A program made the translations under genes and the position numbers. Shown here piece after piece: positions 11,761 to 22,620 of a DNA stretch of 64,000 nucleotides. The stretch is from a bacterium (GTDB lineage: Bacteria; SZUA-79; Acidulodesulfobacterales; Acidulodesulfobacteraceae), in NCBI GenBank assembly GCA_021777135.1, contig JAJYDX010000007.1:1-64000 (forward strand). The letters are read 5' to 3'. The stretch's first letter is position 1, and each line of letters starts with the position of its first letter. The notes below the pieces were generated by a model. That model was not told where the DNA came from, did not search any database, and saw only the letters and a list, made by a program, of their open reading frames with translations.

Positions 11761-12882
11761 ATGGAAATATATTCCGATTTTAAAAGAAAAGATGATATAG
11801 AAAGACTGATTTCCGCTATACGCGATGAGATTAAAAGACCGGTCAATATAATGGAAATATGCGGCGGACATACTCATGCCATTATGAAATACGGATTAAA
11901 TATTCTTCTTAAAGACAAAATAAATTTTCTTCACGGACCGGGTTGTCCAGTCTGCGTTATGCCTGTTAACAGAATAGACGAGGCAATAGAAATTGTTAAT
12001 TCTGCAGGCGTCATACTTGCGGTATACGGCGATATGATGCGCGTTCCCGGAACAAGTAGCTCGCTTATAAAAGAACGGGCAAAAGGCAAAGACGTAAGGA
12101 TGATATATTCCCCCCTTGATATTATTAAAATCGCCGAAGATAAATCCCATAAAAATAAAAAAATAGTTTTTTTCGCGATAGGATTTGAAACTACGACACC
12201 AATGACCGCAGCCCTTCTCGAAGAAATTATAAAAAGGGGAATAGACAATGTTTTCATACATGTCAATCATGTTCTCGTACCTCCCCCGATAAACGCCATA
12301 TTAGATTCCGGAGATAGTCTGATAGACGGTTTTATTTGTCCTGGACACGTCAGCGTTATGACCGGAAGCGGAATATATGCGGATATCCCCCATAAATACG
12401 GCAAGGCGGCGGTTATTACCGGATTCGAGCCTTACGATATATTGAGCGGAGCGCTTTTAATGATACGGCAGATTAACGAAAAAAGACCTTCGGTAGAAAT
12501 TGCGTATAAAAGGGCGGTTAATGAAGACGGTAATAAGAAAGCACAGGATTTGGTAAATAAATATTTTACGGTAAGGGAAGAATTCGAGTGGAGAGGATTC
12601 GGCAAAATTCCTAAAAGCGGATTAAAATTAAAAAACGAGTTTAAAGATTTTGATGCCGAAATAATTTTTAAAAGTAAATTAGAAGAATTGTATATGCAAT
12701 TGGAATCAGGTCGAACCCGCAAAGAAAGTCTTCTATGCAAATGCGGAGAAATATTAAAGGGAAAATCAAAACCTGACGACTGTCCGTTGTTCGGTAAAAC
12801 GTGTAATCCTGAAAATCCTATAGGAGCATGCATGGTTTCTTCCGAAGGGGCATGCGCCGCTTATTATAAATACCGATATTGA
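11761..12882 (+). CDS. hypD: Hydrogenase maturation protein HypD
   Basis: A 373-residue iron-sulfur protein that, with HypC, forms the scaffold on which the Fe(CN)2CO unit of [NiFe] hydrogenases is built. All signature motifs are visible: ICGGHTHA, GPGCPVC, FAIGFETTTP, CPGHVSVMTG and FEPYD. The C-terminal cysteine pattern (CKCGEIL, DCPLFGKTC, GACMVSSEGAC) binds the [4Fe-4S] cluster. Length is typical. It heads a forward run hypD-hypC-hypE-hypF. No ribosome binding site is seen, and a TATAAT lies eight bases before the ATG, which would fit a leaderless transcript. Confidence 0.97.
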   Translation: MEIYSDFKRKDDIERLISAIRDEIKRPVNIMEICGGHTHAIMKYGLNILLKDKINFLHGPGCPVCVMPVNRIDEAIEIVNSAGVILAVYGDMMRVPGTSSSLIKERAKGKDVRMIYSPLDIIKIAEDKSHKNKKIVFFAIGFETTTPMTAALLEEIIKRGIDNVFIHVNHVLVPPPINAILDSGDSLIDGFICPGHVSVMTGSGIYADIPHKYGKAAVITGFEPYDILSGALLMIRQINEKRPSVEIAYKRAVNEDGNKKAQDLVNKYFTVREEFEWRGFGKIPKSGLKLKNEFKDFDAEIIFKSKLEELYMQLESGRTRKESLLCKCGEILKGKSKPDDCPLFGKTCNPENPIGACMVSSEGACAAYYKYRY

Positions 12883-12937: not shown

Positions 12938-13165
12938 ATGTGCCTTGCAATTCCATCAAAAGTTATTGAAATAAATGACGATAATACCGTTATCGTCGAT
13001 ACTATGGGTTCTAAAAGGCTTGTTTCTACTATGCTTCTAGAAGAGTCAGCCCGCATAGGCGATTATCTGCTGATACACGTCGGATACGCGATGCAAAAAA
13101 TAAACGAAAAAGAAGCTATGGAAAGCCTTAACCTGTTCAGGGAAATAGAAAATAAAATTGAATAA
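12938..13165 (+). CDS. hypC: Hydrogenase maturation chaperone HypC
   Basis: A 75-residue HypC/HybG-family protein starting with the invariant MCLAIP, whose Cys2 (N-terminal after Met removal) binds iron and contacts both HypD and the immature large subunit. The rest (VDTMGSKRLVSTMLLEE, GDYLLIHVGYAM) matches the family's small beta-barrel. It lies between hypD and hypE. Its last bases overlap the hypE start, indicating translational coupling. Confidence 0.96.
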   Translation: MCLAIPSKVIEINDDNTVIVDTMGSKRLVSTMLLEESARIGDYLLIHVGYAMQKINEKEAMESLNLFREIENKIE

Positions 13166-14330
13166 TACAAAATACGACAGAATATTGCTTTCTCATGGCG
13201 GAGGAGGAAAAGAGACCTCCGAACTTATAGGAAGCATTATATTTAACGGACTTTACGGACAAAAAGGAATAGACGCAGATAAGTACGACAAATACGGCTT
13301 CAGCTCCAGCGATAGGCATAAAGACGTTTGTTATGCCCAAAATATATCTGGGCAAAAAATAAAGTTATTGGAAGATGCCGCAGTTTTAAAATCTCCGCAA
13401 AATATTGCTTTTACCACTGATTGTTTTACCGTTAAACCAATTTTTTTTAAAGGCGGCGATATTGGAAAACTATCTGTTGCGGGAACGGTTAACGACCTTT
13501 CTGTTATGGGAGCTAAGCCCCTATTTCTAAGTCTTGGATTTATAATAGAAGAAGGGTTTTTCCTGGCAGATTTAGAAAAAATCATAAAAAGTATTTCGGA
13601 TGAGTCCGCTAAAACCGGAGTCATGGTCGTAACTGGAGATACAAAAGTTGTTCCCGCTGGAAAAGCCGACGGTATTTTTATTAATACCAGTGGAATAGGA
13701 GAAATTATATACGACGGTCTTTCCGTTTTCAATATAGCTCCAGGCGATATAATTATCGTTTCCGGCAATGTCGGCGACCACGGCGCCGCGGTAATGTCGC
13801 GTAGGGAAGGGATAGAAATGGACGTGGAAATAGAAAGCGACTGCGCTTCATTATGGGACATGATAGACTCGGTATTAAAATCGGTTACAGGGATAAGCGC
13901 AATAAGAGATGCTACGAGGGGAGGGCTTGCCGCTGTACTTAACGAGTGGGCTATAGCGGCGGAAGCCGATATTTATGCTGAAGAAAATAAAATTCCGGTA
14001 AACGATGCTGTAAAAGGTTTTTGCGAACTTCTCGGCTTCGAGCCTTATCAACTTGCTTGCGAGGGCATGGCTGTTTTTGCTGTAAAGCCGGAATTTGCCG
14101 AGGAAGCGCTAAACGTTATTAAATCCCATTCTCTTGGAAAAAATGCAAGTATAATAGGAACTGTAGTCGGCAATAATAATTTTGCAGGCGGAAAAGACGA
14201 AGCAAGGCAAACAAAAGTAAATGCCGGAAGTATTCGGCAATCGGCAGGAAAAGTTATATTAAAAGGTATTTACGGCGTAAACAGGCTTCTGGATTATCCT
14301 TCAGGCGAACTTTTGCCTAGAATATGCTAA
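13158..14330 (+). CDS. hypE: Hydrogenase maturation protein HypE
   Basis: A 390-residue PurM-like ATPase that dehydrates the thiocarbamate on its own C-terminal cysteine to thiocyanate, donating the cyanide ligands. The N-terminal LLSHGGGGKE and the C-terminal PRIC, whose last cysteine carries the carbamoyl group, are both intact. The start is TTG, overlapping the end of hypC by eight bases; no ATG is available near the conserved N-terminus. It works with HypF, encoded next. Confidence 0.96.
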   Translation: MNNTKYDRILLSHGGGGKETSELIGSIIFNGLYGQKGIDADKYDKYGFSSSDRHKDVCYAQNISGQKIKLLEDAAVLKSPQNIAFTTDCFTVKPIFFKGGDIGKLSVAGTVNDLSVMGAKPLFLSLGFIIEEGFFLADLEKIIKSISDESAKTGVMVVTGDTKVVPAGKADGIFINTSGIGEIIYDGLSVFNIAPGDIIIVSGNVGDHGAAVMSRREGIEMDVEIESDCASLWDMIDSVLKSVTGISAIRDATRGGLAAVLNEWAIAAEADIYAEENKIPVNDAVKGFCELLGFEPYQLACEGMAVFAVKPEFAEEALNVIKSHSLGKNASIIGTVVGNNNFAGGKDEARQTKVNAGSIRQSAGKVILKGIYGVNRLLDYPSGELLPRIC

Positions 14331-14368: not shown

Positions 14369-17083
14369 ATGCAAAGAGCCGTTATTAAATTATCCGGCAG
14401 GGTTCAAGGAGTTGGTTTCAGGCCTTTTGTTTACAGGCTTGCCGAAAAATATAGAATAAAGGGTTATGTTTTAAATAATATGGAAGGGGTTGAAATATTA
14501 GCCGAAGGCGAAGATAACAACCTTTTAAGTTTCATAGAATCGTTGGATTTGGAAAAACCCCCCCTTGCCGTAATAAATAATAAATACGTTGATTTTACTG
14601 AGCCAGTACCATTTTTTTATAAAAATTTTGAAATTAAAGAATCCGATAAAACAGTCAATAAAAACTATACAAGCTTAACTATTCCGCCAGATATCGCCAT
14701 ATGCGACAAATGTTTAGATGAAATTTTTAACCCTTCCGACAGGAGATATTTATATCCGTTTATAAACTGTACAGACTGCGGACCAAGATTTACCATATCT
14801 AAAGGGCTGCCATACGACAGGGTTTCGACGTCTATGGAAAAATTTAAAATGTGCCCTGAATGTCGAGAAGAATATATAAATCCTTTAAGCAGAAGATTTC
14901 ATGCGGAACCGAACGGATGTTTCGCCTGCGGTCCTGAAATAAAATTCATATTAAGCTCCAATGTAATAATTGATAATGTCTATAAAATAAATTATTTTAA
15001 AAACGGATTGGACTTAGACATCAGTTTGGATAAAATTGCCGCAAATAATGAATATATTAAGTTAAATCGATTAAAAAGTTTAGATGCGGTAAAATCAATA
15101 GTAGATTTAATCAAAGGCGGCGGAATAGCCTGCGTTAAGGGTATAGGCGGGTTCCATTTAATGGCTGACGCTGCAAACGACGATGCCTTAAAATTATTAA
15201 GAGAACGTAAAAACAGACCTAAAAAACCTTTTGCGGTATTGTTTAAGGATATGGAGCAGGTATTAAAATATGCTTATATAGACGATATTTCCGCTGACTT
15301 GCTGACGGCAAAAGAACGGCCGATATGCTTGTTGAAGGACAGAAGCCTTTTGTCTTATTACGTAAACTGCGGACTGAAAGATATAGGCGTATTTTTGCCT
15401 TACGCCCCGCTCCATTATATTATATTGAATGTTTTTGGCTCGCCTTTGGTGACAACATCGGCAAACATTGGCGGAGAACCAATAATAAAAGATAACGAAG
15501 AGGCGCTCTTAAAACTTAACGGAATTGCCGACGGTTTTTTAATTCATAACAGGGACATTTTAAGGAGATGCGACGATTCGGTTATAAAAACGCCTTTTTT
15601 TATCAGGCGGTCGAGAGGTTATGTTCCAGACCCGTTTGCTCCGCCCTTTGATTTAAAAAGAAATGTTTTAGCTGTGGGAGCTTTTCTCAAAAACACGTTT
15701 GCTATCGCATACGGAGATACGCTTTCCAGAGATAATGCCGGCGTTTTAAATGATGCTATTATAGGAAAAAATGCCGATACCGCATACGCAGATAATGGCT
15801 TAAGAGGCAAGGAGATAAGCCGCATAATATTAAGCCAGTACAACGGAGACTTGGACAACCTTGCCGGGTTAATAAATTTTAAGGAAAATATAAAAGATTT
15901 TGAAAAATTTTATAATTTCAAGCCTGACGTCGTAGTCTGCGATGCCCATCCTTCTTACGAAAATACGAAATGGGCAAAAGATTACGCAAGCAAAAAAGGA
16001 ATAAAATGCCTGTTTCTTCAGCACCACAGGGCGCATGTTATTTCCTGTATGGCGGAAAACGGCATCGGTAAAGACGAAGAAGTCTTTGGAATAGCTTTCG
16101 ACGGAACGGGTTACGGCGACGACGGAACTATATGGGGCGGGGAATTTTTTAAGGGAACTTATAAAGATTTAAAAAGGATAGGCAGTTTTAAAAAATTCAG
16201 GCTAATCGGCGGCGAAAAAGCCGTTAAATCGCCAAAAAGGATTTTGCTTGCAATTTTATTTGACATATTTACGCAAGGTAGAAATTCTTTTAAAGCAGAT
16301 TTACCTGCTGGTGTTTTGAACATTATCTCGGACTTGACCGGATTTTCAGAAAAAGATATAAGCAATTTTTTAAAAATGTGGAAAAACGGTGTAAATTCGC
16401 CTTATACGACTTCCTGCGGAAGAATTTTTGACGCAGTTTCCTGTTTGTGCGGATTTAAGAGTGATATTACGTATGAGGGGGAAGCGGCGGTATATCTGGA
16501 AGATTTATGCTCCGAAAGCGTAAACGAAAATGAAATTAATAGCTCAAGCGAAAACGTAAGTAAAAGTAAAAAAGCAAGAACGGAGGAACCATTTTGCGAT
16601 AAAGACCGGCATAAGTTTAATTATTACCAAAACGGGAAAATAGAGGACAACGAAATAAAAGAAGATGGCAGTAAAAAAAGCTTTTTTAATTATTCTATGG
16701 ACTATGAAAAAGGGTCGGATTTCTTTACGGTAAATTATAATCTAATGTTTTTAGATATGATTAAAGCTATTTGCAATAATCATAATAATGGCTACAGCGG
16801 TCCGGACGGCTTAAAACCTATAATGCCTGCTATTATGAATAAAAGCATCGCACGTAAATTTATTAATACGCTTGTAGCGATTATTAAAGATGCATCGGCT
16901 ACGGTTAAATGCAAAAACGTCTGTATAAGCGGGGGAGTTTTTCAAAATAGCTTACTCAGGAATAAAACATCTTTAATTCTTAAAGAAAATGGTTTTAACG
17001 CCTATTTTAACGAAAAAGTACCGCCAAACGACGGAGGAATTTCTTTAGGTCAGGCAGTTTACGGGGGAATTATAGGCTTATAG
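14369..17083 (+). CDS. hypF: Carbamoyltransferase HypF
   Basis: HypF turns carbamoyl phosphate into carbamoyl-AMP and passes the carbamoyl group to HypE. Domains in order: acylphosphatase (GRVQGVGFRPFVYRLA, 1-90), two zinc-finger-like cysteine sets (CDKC, CTDCG, CPEC, CFACG, 110-190), a YrdC-like domain (from about 240, GGIACVKGIGGFHLMADA) and a Kae1-like C-terminal domain (QHHRAHVISCMAENG, FDGTGYGDDGTIWGGEF). At 904 residues it is longer than the usual 740-780. Extra length comes mainly from a hydrophilic, low-complexity insertion at about 711-785 and a smaller one near 195-230. The stop overlaps by six bases the end of the convergent hyaD gene. Confidence 0.96.
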   Translation: MQRAVIKLSGRVQGVGFRPFVYRLAEKYRIKGYVLNNMEGVEILAEGEDNNLLSFIESLDLEKPPLAVINNKYVDFTEPVPFFYKNFEIKESDKTVNKNYTSLTIPPDIAICDKCLDEIFNPSDRRYLYPFINCTDCGPRFTISKGLPYDRVSTSMEKFKMCPECREEYINPLSRRFHAEPNGCFACGPEIKFILSSNVIIDNVYKINYFKNGLDLDISLDKIAANNEYIKLNRLKSLDAVKSIVDLIKGGGIACVKGIGGFHLMADAANDDALKLLRERKNRPKKPFAVLFKDMEQVLKYAYIDDISADLLTAKERPICLLKDRSLLSYYVNCGLKDIGVFLPYAPLHYIILNVFGSPLVTTSANIGGEPIIKDNEEALLKLNGIADGFLIHNRDILRRCDDSVIKTPFFIRRSRGYVPDPFAPPFDLKRNVLAVGAFLKNTFAIAYGDTLSRDNAGVLNDAIIGKNADTAYADNGLRGKEISRIILSQYNGDLDNLAGLINFKENIKDFEKFYNFKPDVVVCDAHPSYENTKWAKDYASKKGIKCLFLQHHRAHVISCMAENGIGKDEEVFGIAFDGTGYGDDGTIWGGEFFKGTYKDLKRIGSFKKFRLIGGEKAVKSPKRILLAILFDIFTQGRNSFKADLPAGVLNIISDLTGFSEKDISNFLKMWKNGVNSPYTTSCGRIFDAVSCLCGFKSDITYEGEAAVYLEDLCSESVNENEINSSSENVSKSKKARTEEPFCDKDRHKFNYYQNGKIEDNEIKEDGSKKSFFNYSMDYEKGSDFFTVNYNLMFLDMIKAICNNHNNGYSGPDGLKPIMPAIMNKSIARKFINTLVAIIKDASATVKCKNVCISGGVFQNSLLRNKTSLILKENGFNAYFNEKVPPNDGGISLGQAVYGGIIGL

Positions 17084-17569
17084 CGGTATTATATAATCGG
17101 GATTTATTTTCCAATTTATCCCGAAAGGTTTTATTTCTTCTAAAACGAGATTTTCGAGCTTAGGCATAGCGTCCCTTAAGGGCGGCGATAATTCTGTCCC
17201 GACGCCGGAGCAGTCTTCCGGCGAAACAGCAAAAATAGTTATATCGGGATTGTGTCCCTGCAGCGCGCACATAGTTATTACGTCTATAAACTCGACGTCG
17301 TGCGCAGTTTTTTTCATTAGATTAGCGGGAATATCACCGTTTTTAAATTTAAAAATTCTCCCCGGTCCTTCTTCGGTTTTCAATGCGTCCACCACTATAA
17401 TATCGTCAAGACCGAATATATCGTCAAGCAGCCCGTATCCAAGAGTGCTGCCGTCGATTAATTTAATATCGCCGTTAAAAATATATTTTTCTCTTAGTAA
17501 GTTTATAAAATGAACGCCTAAACCCTCGTCTTTTAAAATGAGATTACCTATTCCTATTATACCCGTCAT
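17078..17569 (-). CDS. hyaD: [NiFe] hydrogenase large-subunit maturation endopeptidase
   Basis: A 163-residue HybD/HyaD-family protease that removes the C-terminal tail of the large subunit after nickel insertion. The N-terminal GIGNLILKDEGLGVH, with Glu15, and VVDAL, with Asp61, and His90 in TAHDVEF correspond to the nickel-binding residues of HybD. It is the last gene of the reverse-strand hydrogenase operon, 50 bases after the cytochrome gene, and its 3' end overlaps hypF. Its presence agrees with the uncleaved tail predicted on the large subunit. Confidence 0.94.
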   Translation of the reverse strand: MTGIIGIGNLILKDEGLGVHFINLLREKYIFNGDIKLIDGSTLGYGLLDDIFGLDDIIVVDALKTEEGPGRIFKFKNGDIPANLMKKTAHDVEFIDVITMCALQGHNPDITIFAVSPEDCSGVGTELSPPLRDAMPKLENLVLEEIKPFGINWKINPDYIIPL

Positions 17570-17619: not shown

Positions 17620-18390
17620 TTATTGAGTTTCCGATTTATTTCTTATGTATTTATAGCCGCCAAAAGGTATAAGAATATCGCCTTCTTTCCACATTACCGA
17701 ACGCCAGACTTCTATGTATATATGATAAGCAATAAATATTATAATCAACCACATTATAAACAGGTGTGCAATAGTAACTCCGGTGAGCCCGCCGAATATG
17801 AAGAGCGTCCAGTCGGTCGAAAAATGCATAAGCCACGGCCACCAAGCGCCAACAGCAGAAGTTCCAGTAAACGAAGCAACATACATCTGAAATCCGGTAA
17901 GCATCTGGAGAAGTATGAGAAGGTGAAAAATCGTAAAGACAAAAGCGTTTAAGGGGTCCTGATATCGCCCGGTTTTTGGCTTATCTTTAAGCGTAAAGTA
18001 ATGTTTAATCATTTTCCACGCTTCTTCAAGTTTGTCTCCGAAAGGTAAAAAGCTTTTATAAAGAGGCTCTTTCCATGAAAAAAAAGCCAAATAAAGCCAT
18101 ACGATAAAAATAACGTCTATTAGTACGGCTCCTATAAAATGAAAATCTCTCATCCATGTCATAATAAAAGCCTGATTGGTTTCTCCTGAATTAACTATGC
18201 CGGTGGAAAGAGAGTCGGATTGAGTAGGAGTTTTTCCGAAGAATAAAAAAGGATACGCAATATAAAAGCCTGTGATTATATTATTTATAATTGCCAAAAA
18301 GAAAGTCCAGTGTATTATTCTTTTTATCACAGTCATCCTATGGACCAGATTTATTTCACCGTATTTATTTATATTTTCTTTATTTTCCAT
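17620..18390 (-). CDS. hyaC: Hydrogenase b-type cytochrome subunit
   Basis: A 256-residue membrane protein with four main transmembrane helices, matching the HyaC/HupC cytochrome b561-like family that anchors the hydrogenase and passes electrons to quinone. Candidate haem-ligand histidines lie in VHRMTVIKRIIHW, MRDFHFIG, FTIFHLLILLQ and IIFIAYHIYIEVWRS. The gene follows the large subunit by 51 bases. Its presence makes a respiratory, H2-consuming direction likely. Confidence 0.93.
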   Translation of the reverse strand: MENKENINKYGEINLVHRMTVIKRIIHWTFFLAIINNIITGFYIAYPFLFFGKTPTQSDSLSTGIVNSGETNQAFIMTWMRDFHFIGAVLIDVIFIVWLYLAFFSWKEPLYKSFLPFGDKLEEAWKMIKHYFTLKDKPKTGRYQDPLNAFVFTIFHLLILLQMLTGFQMYVASFTGTSAVGAWWPWLMHFSTDWTLFIFGGLTGVTIAHLFIMWLIIIFIAYHIYIEVWRSVMWKEGDILIPFGGYKYIRNKSETQ

Positions 18391-18441: not shown

Positions 18442-20127
18442 TCAGCATACCCTAAATTTTTTTATTTCGTTAGTTTTAGGGTCTATTAAGTGAACGGCAC
18501 AGGCTAAACACGGGTCGAAAGAATGAACGGTCCGTAAAATTTCGAGGGGCTGAGAAGGATTTGCAAGCTTAACGCCGACAAGCGACGCCTCGTATGCGCC
18601 GGGATTATTAAAGGCATCTCTTGGAGACGCGTTCCAAGTCGTTGGAACTACGATTTGATAATGGGTAATCTGTTTGTTTTTTATCCTTACCCAATGACCT
18701 AGCGAGCCCCTGGGAGCTTCGTCCAAACCGATGCCTACAATTTCTTTAGAAGGCATGTCGTAGTGCGTCCAGCTAGACTGGTCTACAGCGGCATTTTTAA
18801 TTAAATCAAGCGTCCATGTTTCCAATGCATCGGCCACGTATTTTGCCTCTATACCCCTTGCCGCCGTTCTGCCTAGCGTTGAGAAGAGAGCGGTTACGGG
18901 TAATCCTGCTGTTTTTAAGACATAATCAACTAAGGATTTTATTGTTTTATTTCCTTTTGCGTATGCCACTAAAGTTCTTGCGAGAGGACCGACTTCCATG
19001 GCTTTATTTTCATAACGTGGAGATTTAATCCAGCTGTATTTTTCGTCTTCTTTAAGGCTGCCGTCTTTATTTAATCCAGTGTAATCCGGATCAGTAATTC
19101 CAACAGAAGGGTTGAGCCCTACCTTTTCATCTGGATATTTATACCATGAATGGGTTACGAATTCTGTTATTTTCTTTTCGTCTAAATTGTGCACTTTGCT
19201 TAAATCCCTGTCAAAAATAACACCTCTCATCAGGAAATAATCGTCCGGACTTTCATCGTCAGTCTGCGGAAAAGCACCGTATGAAAGATAGTTTTTAAGC
19301 CCGCCCCCTATTCCCTGAATGGCTTCGTCTTTATAAAATTCTGCCGCAGCAAGCAAATCCGGTATGTATGCGTTATTTACGAAATCGGTTATTTTACCTA
19401 TCCTGAATAAGATATCATCCATTCTTTGAGGATTAATAATATCGGCAATCGAAGATATTCCGCCTACAACACAAGTTTGCGGATGCGGGTCTTTTGCGCC
19501 GAGAATTGCTATAATTTGCGCTGGTATTCTAAGGATGTTAAGATTGTCTAAATAGTGTGAAGCTATTAATAAATTGCCCTCAGGCGGTAGTTTATAAGAG
19601 GGGTTTCCCCAATAACCACCTGCAAAAGGACCTAATTGACCTGATTTGACGAAATTAGCAAGACGCGTTTTTACTTCTTCAAATCTTGCAAGACTTGCGT
19701 TGTATGGAGTTTTAGTATAGGCATATGCTAAATCCATGGTTTTCTTAGGGTCTGCTTTAAGAGCAGATACAATATCTACCCAGTCTAGACCTGCAAGCTG
19801 ATAAAAATGGACTAAGTGGTCCTGAACCATTTGGGCGCCTTTAAGAATATTTCTTGCGATTCTGGCGTTTTTTGGCGGATGTATTCCAAGCGCGTTTTCG
19901 ACCGCCCATGTTGCCGCTTCATAATGCGCGTAAGTACATACGCCGCAAATCCTCTGGGCGAAAAGTCCAGCATCTTCGGGAGCTCTTCCGTTAAGGATAA
20001 GTTCTATTCCTCTAAAAAGCGTGCCGGAAGAATGAGCTTCGCTAATTTCACTGCCGTTTAGCGAGGCTTCTATCCTGAGATGACCTTCTATCCTTGTAAC
20101 GGGATCCACTATAATTTTTGTCGCCAT
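18442..20127 (-). CDS. hyaB: [NiFe] hydrogenase large subunit
   Basis: The 561-residue catalytic subunit binding the NiFe(CN)2CO centre. The N-terminal nickel ligands lie in RICGVC (Cys61, Cys64) and the C-terminal ones in DPCLACAVH (Cys540, Cys543, with His546). The peptide continues 15 residues beyond His546 (ending KKFRVC), the tail removed by HyaD. The features fit a respiratory group 1 enzyme. GGAGG lies upstream of the ATG. It follows the small-subunit gene by 48 bases, the usual order for exported heterodimers. Confidence 0.97.
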   Translation of the reverse strand: MATKIIVDPVTRIEGHLRIEASLNGSEISEAHSSGTLFRGIELILNGRAPEDAGLFAQRICGVCTYAHYEAATWAVENALGIHPPKNARIARNILKGAQMVQDHLVHFYQLAGLDWVDIVSALKADPKKTMDLAYAYTKTPYNASLARFEEVKTRLANFVKSGQLGPFAGGYWGNPSYKLPPEGNLLIASHYLDNLNILRIPAQIIAILGAKDPHPQTCVVGGISSIADIINPQRMDDILFRIGKITDFVNNAYIPDLLAAAEFYKDEAIQGIGGGLKNYLSYGAFPQTDDESPDDYFLMRGVIFDRDLSKVHNLDEKKITEFVTHSWYKYPDEKVGLNPSVGITDPDYTGLNKDGSLKEDEKYSWIKSPRYENKAMEVGPLARTLVAYAKGNKTIKSLVDYVLKTAGLPVTALFSTLGRTAARGIEAKYVADALETWTLDLIKNAAVDQSSWTHYDMPSKEIVGIGLDEAPRGSLGHWVRIKNKQITHYQIVVPTTWNASPRDAFNNPGAYEASLVGVKLANPSQPLEILRTVHSFDPCLACAVHLIDPKTNEIKKFRVC

Positions 20128-20175: not shown

Positions 20176-21438
20176 TTAATCTTCTTTTTTGGAAGAAGAT
20201 TTTTTAGTTTCATTTTTCTTTTTAATTCCCGTATATATTGCATGCGCTGCGATTCCGACGCCGGCCGCACCTAAAAGAGCTACGCCAAATTCATCGGCTG
20301 TAGCTTCTACGCCTGGAATTATAATCTTTGCATCGGCGTTAGGTTTCTCGAACGGGGTCATCCTATCCCAGAAAACAGGTTCCGAGCAGCCTATGCATCC
20401 GTGCCCGGCGCGCATAGGAAAACTCGTATCCTGATTGTATTCGGCGGTAGTGCAGTTGTTCCATGTAAAAGGACCCTTGCAGCCCATCATATAAAGGCAG
20501 TATTCTTTTTTTGCCCCTGCGTCGCCCCAGTGCCTGACGTATTCTCCAGCTTCAAAATGCCCCCTGCGATAACAGTTATCGTGAAGCCTGCCCGAATATG
20601 CCCATAACGGACGGCCGATATTATCAAGTTGAGGGGCTTTTCCTGTGAGTATGTATTCTACAAGAGTACCGACTACGTTTACGGGATTTGCCGGACAAGC
20701 CGGAATATTTATAACGCTTCTGTTTGTAACCGAACTAAGACCAACGGCGTTTGTAGGGTTGGGGGAAGCGGCAGGTATCCCGCCGTAAGCAGCGCAGTTA
20801 CCTATTGCAATTGTAATACCCGCATTTTTTGCGGTTTCTTTAACTATCTTTATGCCGGTATCTCCTTTAGCGCCTATAGTAAGGAATTTTCCGTCCATTC
20901 CGGTAGGAATTGCGCCCTCTACCACAAGTATGTATTTGCCTTTATCTTTTTTAATGGTTTCCGTTCTTCTTGCCTCTGCCTGATATCCTGCCGGGGCCAT
21001 AATAGACTCCATATAGTTAACGCTAACGTAGTTAATAATAATTTCAGCCGGAGTCGGATTTGCGTTTCTTATAAAAGCTTCAGTATTTCCCATGCAGTCC
21101 GCCATATCTAGCCATATAAACGGTGTTCTGGTAAGAATGTTTGCAGCTCTTGCAATTCTTGGTTTAAATATGTAAGGAAGCATCAATGTCGATGTTAAAA
21201 ATGCGCTCCATTTAAGGAAATCTCTTCTGGAAACTCCATAAATGTCAAATATATTGGGGAGGTTGTTTTCTTTTTCTTTAGTGTTCTTAAAATACTCTTT
21301 TTCAAGTTTGTCTAAGCGCTTATCTACTTTTTTTAAAACTTCGTCGGGATTTTTAGAGATAAACCTGAGCGGGTCCCATTTAAATGCGGGTTTTTTTTCT
21401 TTACAGTTATTGTCGCAAGAATGGTTATCATTATCCAT
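20176..21438 (-). CDS. hyaA: [NiFe] hydrogenase small subunit, Tat-exported
   Basis: A 420-residue electron-transfer subunit. Cluster ligands are seen in NCAAYGG, PACPANP, LHDNC, YCLYMMGCKG, WNNC and GHGCIGCSEP, matching the distal and medial clusters and two proximal ligands. A C-terminal helix (about 380-400) should anchor it to the membrane beside HyaC. Two oddities: the first cluster motif, normally CxxC, reads CMGN (Cys115, Asn118; the codon is AAT on the coding strand), and the Tat motif SRRDFLK (70-76) is preceded by about 69 hydrophilic, Lys/Glu-rich residues. No internal Met lies between residue 1 and the twin arginines. A TTAGGAGG ribosome binding site supports the start. It heads the hyaABCD operon. 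Confidence 0.95.
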   Translation of the reverse strand: MDNDNHSCDNNCKEKKPAFKWDPLRFISKNPDEVLKKVDKRLDKLEKEYFKNTKEKENNLPNIFDIYGVSRRDFLKWSAFLTSTLMLPYIFKPRIARAANILTRTPFIWLDMADCMGNTEAFIRNANPTPAEIIINYVSVNYMESIMAPAGYQAEARRTETIKKDKGKYILVVEGAIPTGMDGKFLTIGAKGDTGIKIVKETAKNAGITIAIGNCAAYGGIPAASPNPTNAVGLSSVTNRSVINIPACPANPVNVVGTLVEYILTGKAPQLDNIGRPLWAYSGRLHDNCYRRGHFEAGEYVRHWGDAGAKKEYCLYMMGCKGPFTWNNCTTAEYNQDTSFPMRAGHGCIGCSEPVFWDRMTPFEKPNADAKIIIPGVEATADEFGVALLGAAGVGIAAHAIYTGIKKKNETKKSSSKKED

Positions 21439-21605: not shown

Positions 21606-21845
21606 ATGCATGAGTTTTCAATAGCTTTAGAAATACTTGATACGCTTGAGGAAAACGGTTATTTAGACGGCGTAAAAAAAGTAAACTCTGTCAAACTTGC
21701 AATAGGAAAATATTCAGGCATAGATAAAAACTATCTTGAGTTTGCGTTTCAAAATCTTTCCGACGAAAGATTTAAAAATGTTTTTACGGAATTCGTTCCA
21801 AACGATTCCGACGAAATAAAAATAATTGAAATCACGGTTGATTAA
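21606..21845 (+). CDS. hypA: HypA-like nickel protein lacking the zinc-binding domain
   Basis: A 79-residue protein recognisable as HypA by the N-terminal MHEFSIALEILD (His2 is the nickel ligand), VKLAIGKYSGID and YLEFAFQNLS, and by a C-terminal strand DEIKIIEITVD. Ordinary HypA proteins are about 113-120 residues and carry a zinc site made by two CxxC motifs between these parts. Here that stretch is missing and the protein has no cysteine at all, while the reading frame is open on both sides. This looks like a clean internal loss rather than a frameshift. hypB follows after 37 bases, the normal pairing for nickel delivery. Confidence 0.88.
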   Translation: MHEFSIALEILDTLEENGYLDGVKKVNSVKLAIGKYSGIDKNYLEFAFQNLSDERFKNVFTEFVPNDSDEIKIIEITVD

Positions 21846-21882: not shown

Positions 21883-22620
21883 ATGTTAAAATCTAATCGT
21901 TTTAAACGGGTAAGCACTGGCGGAAGATCTTTAACCGTGCAAAAAAATGCTCTTGAATCTAACGAAATTAACGCTAAAAAAAACAAAGCGGTATTTGGTA
22001 AAGCATTTGTTATGAATATTTTAAGTTCGCCGGGTTCAGGAAAGACGTCTTTATTGGAATCAATAGTGCCCGCTTTAAAATTGGAAGGCTTTAACGCAGC
22101 AGTTATAGAGGGGGACGTGGAAACAGACCTCGATAAAAAACGAATTGATAATTTAGGCGTTCCCGCATATCAGATTATTACTAACGGAACATGCCATCTT
22201 GACGCAAAAATGGTGAATGTATCTTTAAACAGCCTCGATATAAAAAATGCAGATGTAATTTTTATAGAAAACGTAGGTAATTTGGTCTGTCCTACGTCTT
22301 TTAACCTTGGAGAAGACATGAAAGTCGTAGTGCTTTCCGTAACCGAAGGAGACGACAAGCCTTTAAAGTACCCGGCGGCTTTCTATAAATCCAAGGTAAT
22401 GATTATCAATAAAACAGACCTGCTTCCCGCTCTTGATTCGGACATAGCAAAAATAAAAGAAAATGCACTGTCTATAAATAAGGAATTGATAATATTTGAA
22501 ACTTCGTGCAGAAAAAAAACAACAGAAAATATTTATAATAAAGGAATTGCCGATTTTGTTTCCTTTGTAAAAGAAAAAATAAGGATTAAAGCGGCCGAGT
22601 TTCAAAAACAGAATATATAA
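21883..22620 (+). CDS. hypB: Hydrogenase nickel-insertion GTPase HypB
   Basis: A 245-residue SIMIBI-class GTPase that delivers nickel to the large subunit with HypA. It has the P-loop SSPGSGKTSL, EGDVETDLD (switch region), the G3-like ENVGN and G4 NKTDL. The metal-site residues of the G domain are kept: Cys-His in GTCHLDA and a cysteine in NLVCP. No histidine-rich nickel-storage stretch is present at the N-terminus. Confidence 0.96.
   Translation: MLKSNRFKRVSTGGRSLTVQKNALESNEINAKKNKAVFGKAFVMNILSSPGSGKTSLLESIVPALKLEGFNAAVIEGDVETDLDKKRIDNLGVPAYQIITNGTCHLDAKMVNVSLNSLDIKNADVIFIENVGNLVCPTSFNLGEDMKVVVLSVTEGDDKPLKYPAAFYKSKVMIINKTDLLPALDSDIAKIKENALSINKELIIFETSCRKKTTENIYNKGIADFVSFVKEKIRIKAAEFQKQNI

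Follow-up and report, generated by a model that had tools for sequence, protein, structure and literature searches.

The proximal cluster of a [NiFe] hydrogenase governs much of its potential, bias and oxygen response. The window, i.e. the whole stretch of 64,000 nt analysed here, encodes a small subunit in which the second proximal-cluster cysteine is an asparagine. This raises the question whether the site is genuine, where the asparagine comes from and which cluster it would hold. The relevant features are listed below; the HypB to HypF products were named from sequence, not by family search.

20176-21438 (-): [NiFe] hydrogenase small subunit, 420 aa, Tat signal R71 R72 D F L K, C-terminal hydrophobic helix
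21085-21096 (-): motif C115-M-G-N118 (TGC ATG GGA AAT), proximal-cluster site with Asn for Cys
20794-20796 (-): Cys215, third proximal-cluster position (GNCAAYGG)
20695-20697 (-): Cys248, fourth proximal-cluster position (PACPANP)
18442-20127 (-): [NiFe] hydrogenase large subunit, 561 aa, nickel-iron motifs RICGVC and DPCLAC, C-terminal tail for removal
17620-18390 (-): b-type cytochrome membrane anchor (TIGR02125, 113.7 bits, slightly under the cut-off of 121.5)
17078-17569 (-): HupD/HyaD-type maturation protease
21606-21845 (+): HypA, 79 aa, without C-terminal zinc domain
21883-22620 (+): HypB-like GTPase
11761-12882 (+): HypD
12938-13165 (+): HypC
13158-14330 (+): HypE
14369-17083 (+): HypF

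The CMGN site and its operon

The small-subunit frame translates without a stop over its 420 aa. It scores 398.5 bits against TIGR00391 (hydA; profile search, cut-off 179.5) and matches small subunits in the PDB with E values as low as 8e-85. In the alignment with HoxK, ECTGCSE pairs with DCMGNTE without any gap, and WLDMADC115-M-G-N118-TEAF stands against WLHGLECTGCSESF in the closest solved enzymes. Cys115 is encoded by TGC (21096-21094) and Asn118 by AAT (21087-21085). The remaining proximal positions C215 and C248 are both kept, as are the distal-cluster positions H286, C289, C314 and C320 and the medial-cluster positions C329, C348 and C351 plus Pro341. The sequence-only reading had claimed an asparagine at this ligand position, with the same residue numbers, coordinates and codon, as well as the presence of all other expected cluster ligands, and is borne out on each of these points. 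With a Tat-type small subunit carrying the ligands of three clusters, the N- and C-terminal CxxC motifs of the large subunit and a cytochrome b, the enzyme has the make-up of membrane-bound group 1 and departs from its ligand set at the second proximal cysteine only.

About 70 residues precede the Tat twin arginine (21225-21438 (-)), which is longer than usual and shows the pattern KWDPLR..ISxNPDEVLKKVDxRLDxLEKEYF. A long pre-Tat stretch is also found in the Asn-type relatives from Campylobacteraceae and Trueperaceae.

The genes for the large subunit, the b-type cytochrome and the HupD-type protease lie downstream of the small-subunit gene and make up a complete operon; in nine relatives the small-subunit gene is likewise followed by those for the large subunit and cytochrome b, in this order. 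Genes for HypA, HypB, HypC, HypD, HypE and HypF flank the operon. Genome-wide, there is a single small subunit and a single large subunit of group-1 type.

All 22 small subunits found in the genus and family of the host, that of its own genome included, carry DCMGNTE, at identities down to ~76% and with Asn118 encoded by AAT in 18 cases and by AAC in four. Since all 22 share the asparagine, N118 is neither an error nor a sign of decay. The one point in favour of a decayed subunit or a sequencing artefact is the missing canonical ligand. Against it stand the identical motif in 22 genomes, the invariance of the other ligands, the synonymous change at the Asn codon, the operon without gaps in its gene set and the presence of a single large Hyp gene set. 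Owing to the conserved motif, the use of both Asn codons, the complete operon and the Hyp genes, we regard this explanation as excluded for practical purposes.

Two of the maturation proteins are unusual in themselves. HypA, with 79 aa, stops short of its usual C-terminal zinc domain, and its Pfam match covers positions 1-55 of 112. The same length is found in 16 of the 16 family genomes in which it is readable, and no second HypA was found in the genome. hypB starts 37 bases past the end of hypA. A separately encoded zinc domain was considered and rejected, as the best candidate (L121) turned out to be a zinc-ribbon protein of 84 aa whose tail is rich in glycine, and contains no HypA piece. 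A zinc-free HypA fixed across a whole lineage may merit its own study. HypF carries an insertion-like, hydrophilic low-complexity stretch of ~65 residues (around SESVNENEINSSSENVSKSKKARTEEPF...) in its C-terminal part.

Spread of the asparagine and phylogenetic position

One genome per species was scanned for relatives, and the 80 nearest loci from other lineages were aligned. At the position equivalent to Asn118 they show 22 Asn, 18 Asp and 40 Cys; being the nearest to the query, this set is no measure of frequency across all hydrogenases. Judged by record title, the Asn relatives span about ten phyla and include Campylobacterota, Geobacteraceae, Trueperaceae, Nitrospirota, Chloroflexi, Acidobacteria and Thermotogota, furthermore Rhodopseudomonas and other Proteobacteria, Acidimicrobiia and Myxococcales. 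All 102 aligned small subunits agree at the ten remaining ligand positions, the medial Pro included.

Asparagine at this site has been published before. It occurs at one proximal ligand in HupS of mesophilic Verrucomicrobia and in group 2a, while group 1f of Roseiflexus, Geobacter and Frankia has Asn or Asp (PMC5364354). For HupS of Nostoc punctiforme the exchange of the second proximal Cys for Asn has been tabulated, and an engineered C81N variant of the Alteromonas enzyme still evolves H2, C81D being active too (PMC4070099). Huc (PDB 7utd/7uur) shows ACSGNTM at the equivalent place; its PDB sequence was retrieved with a 60-aa probe of cyanobacterial HupS type, which was not used otherwise. 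PMC6776010, which deals with Ca. Acidulodesulfobacterales, leaves hydrogenases unmentioned. The earlier suggestion of an uncommon cluster type holds insofar as the site departs from CxxC and the proximal cluster should differ from a four-cysteine [4Fe-4S], because CxxC is lost while the other ligands are present. It is too strong, however, as well-described groups with Asn do exist in group 1f, group 2a and Huc (PMC5364354, PMC4070099, PMC10017518), C81N is active and the Huc structure is solved. The enzyme adds a new branch to a known Asn variant rather than a new kind of cluster, and its novelty is modest, consisting in an Asn lineage that is none of the groups previously reported to have this residue.

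Trees were built from the small subunit with the motif columns removed, from the large subunit and from both joined, whereby subgroup names rest on the cited papers and on background knowledge. In all of them the window family sides with the Cys-type enzymes of Shewanella and Campylobacterota (small subunit 100/99, large subunit 100/99, joint 100/100). In its clade it is joined by Asn-type Campylobacteraceae (L031, L035) and by a Trueperaceae enzyme (L063) that sits on a long branch. Roseiflexus, Geomonas, Acidobacteria and Chloroflexi belong to the classic Asn/Asp clade, which stands apart. The membrane-bound uptake hydrogenases of Shewanella and Campylobacterota are those which we take to be group 1b, and the window family is sister or basal to their clade with full support, but on a long branch. 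It lacks the four-cysteine proximal site of group 1b (Asn118). With group 1f it shares Asn/Asp for the proximal Cys, but it does not belong phylogenetically with the Roseiflexus/Geobacter types.

Descent of a diverged enzyme from group 1f, with the asparagine inherited from there, would fit the description of Asn/Asp in that group, and the large subunit is ~50-54% identical to the 1f-like rows vs 45-50% to Cys-type Campylobacterota. The placement in all three trees speaks against it, as does the long N-terminus ahead of the Tat twin arginine, which is common to the Shewanella/Campylobacterota side. Moreover, forcing the window family together with the 1f-like rows is 61.8 log units worse (AU test, large subunit, p-AU 0.00014; the tested clade was chosen after tree inspection, which weakens the p value). 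Simple descent from group 1f is rejected by this test, and we consider an origin in that group improbable overall.

The Cys/Asn/Asp state changed at least nine times on the joint tree of 67 enzymes, five of these changes being between Cys and Asn/Asp. Two Chloroflexi-type enzymes (L069 and L088, WLEFQDCAGC/WLELQDCAGC) are of Cys-type but nested in the Asn/Asp clade with Asn-type surroundings; they are possible cysteine regains. Three further enzymes from Nitrospirae and Nitrospinota (L076, L077, L084) are of Asp-type (WLHFAECTGD) and stand outside the main Asn/Asp clade beside Cys-type Desulfobacterales, and their Asp is another separate change at this position. The branches around L063 in the joint tree are weak and bear on whether Asn is ancestral in the clade of the window enzyme. 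As a speculative scenario, the Asn site may be old in the Campylobacterota/Shewanella stem, separate from 1f and with a remodelled pocket and a [3Fe-4S] cluster of high potential, the cysteine having been regained there. If true, the type of the proximal cluster can switch in evolution.

The vacant corner of the proximal cluster

The positions separating Asn/Asp-type from Cys-type enzymes cluster around the three proximal segments (111, 114, 116, 222, 250). Position 111 changes from His to Asp/Glu and position 114 from Glu to Asp or other residues. Position 222, seven past C215, changes from Gln to Pro, and position 250, two past C248, from Pro to Ala, Met or Val. The latter goes in the same direction in four of the five independent pairs and in the opposite direction in none. 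Strong in raw counts, the co-variation with ligand type is not significant across the five independent pairs available. The pattern suggests that the pocket may have adapted to the loss of the thiolate.

Another cysteine could in principle occupy the vacant corner and render the cluster ordinary. The large subunit offers a single non-canonical candidate, Cys219, located four residues past His215 of KDPHPQT, and the His of this stretch touches the proximal cluster in other enzymes (PMC10017518). However, of nine relatives three (L113, L114, L118) have Thr or Ile instead of Cys219 while retaining Asn118, and Cys219 was rejected as a replacement ligand since it is unconserved in the family. In 22 of 22 family members the mature small subunit contains nine cysteines, every one of them a cluster ligand, and no spare cysteine was found there among these 22 genomes. 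The nearby cysteine which the sequence-only reading had considered as a possible filler of the site is thus missing there, and we regard a substitute cysteine as very improbable. No conserved cysteine is left to fill the site, and the options would be Asn118 itself, water or nothing. An O2-tolerant type as in group 1d ([4Fe-3S] with two supernumerary cysteines) was likewise rejected, given Gly117 at the first extra position and the nine cysteines of the mature subunit.

We consider it likely that the operon encodes a functional, membrane-bound, periplasm-facing H2-uptake hydrogenase, whose proximal cluster is held by Cys115, Cys215 and Cys248, while Asn118 occupies the fourth corner and is most likely no strong ligand. 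H2 splitting and the cluster relay to the quinone pool are established for this type of enzyme. In the window enzyme H2 would be split at the NiFe site, and the electrons would pass from the proximal to the medial [3Fe-4S] cluster (Pro341 being kept), on to the distal cluster (His/Cys3) and via cytochrome b into the quinone pool. The proximal cluster would be either a three-cysteine [3Fe-4S] as in Huc or a [4Fe-4S] whose fourth iron is labile or ligated by oxygen. Both forms would raise the proximal potential and bias the enzyme to H2 oxidation into the quinone pool. Cluster type, potential, catalytic bias and any oxygen response are what we infer. Besides dsrA, the genome encodes a COX1-type (heme-copper) oxidase, so that H2 could feed sulfite reduction as well as oxygen respiration. 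The host, an uncultured bacterium, is probably a sulfate reducer and, judging from the isolated position of its family and from dsrA, probably belongs to SZUA-79 / Ca. Acidulodesulfobacterales.

By analogy, a [3Fe-4S] proximal cluster is slightly favoured, because Huc with Asn at the same position has one. The transfer from Huc is uncertain, since its medial and distal sites differ, it has no such cytochrome b and a D-His lies by its proximal cluster. It is also quite conceivable, if not what we expect, that Asn118, or a water or hydroxide held by it, ligates the fourth iron of a [4Fe-4S] cluster whose ligands are three Cys and one O or N atom. Schaefer et al. reportedly found in 2016 that group 1h, with Asp at the same site, keeps its [4Fe-4S], and hence Asn could do so too. 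Asn and Asp have swapped several times within one clade, suggesting a shared role. Amide ligation of iron-sulfur clusters is rare, which speaks against such a ligand. For group 2a, on the other hand, the case is worded as asparagine coordination (PMC5364354), and Asp was the best-tolerated substitute in a mutational survey (PMC4070099). In Huc, despite its Asn, density and EPR led to the assignment of all three clusters, the proximal one included, as [3Fe-4S], and clusters of this kind were argued to raise the potential of the chain (PMC10017518). This assignment speaks against a ligated fourth iron.

Comparison with known systems

Switching between Cys, Asn and Asp with all other ligands fixed constitutes a natural series on the tuning of a cluster by a single ligand. 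The Asn lineage added here consists of bacteria with dsrA and a heme-copper oxidase gene.

The group 1h enzyme of actinobacterial type (PDB 5aa5), in which we take the proximal Cys to be replaced by Asp, differs by this residue from the Asn of the window enzyme and is remote in sequence. Huc (group 2a, Mycobacterium smegmatis) shares the Asn at the equivalent position, but belongs to a different group of remote sequence, is built around a menaquinone stalk, has its medial and distal clusters ligated in another way and carries a D-His next to the proximal cluster; the cytochrome b arrangement of the window type is absent. Group 1f shares Asn/Asp at the second proximal position, the other ligands and an operon of small subunit, large subunit and cytochrome b. 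It forms a separate, well-supported clade with the motif DCAGN or GC(T/S)GD vs DCMGN in the window. The enzymes of Shewanella and Campylobacterota share the clade in three trees, the long pre-Tat stretch and the downstream cytochrome b with the window enzyme. They show the canonical ECTGC, whereas the asparagine is found in the window enzyme, a few Campylobacteraceae (L031, L032, L035) and the Trueperaceae enzyme L063.
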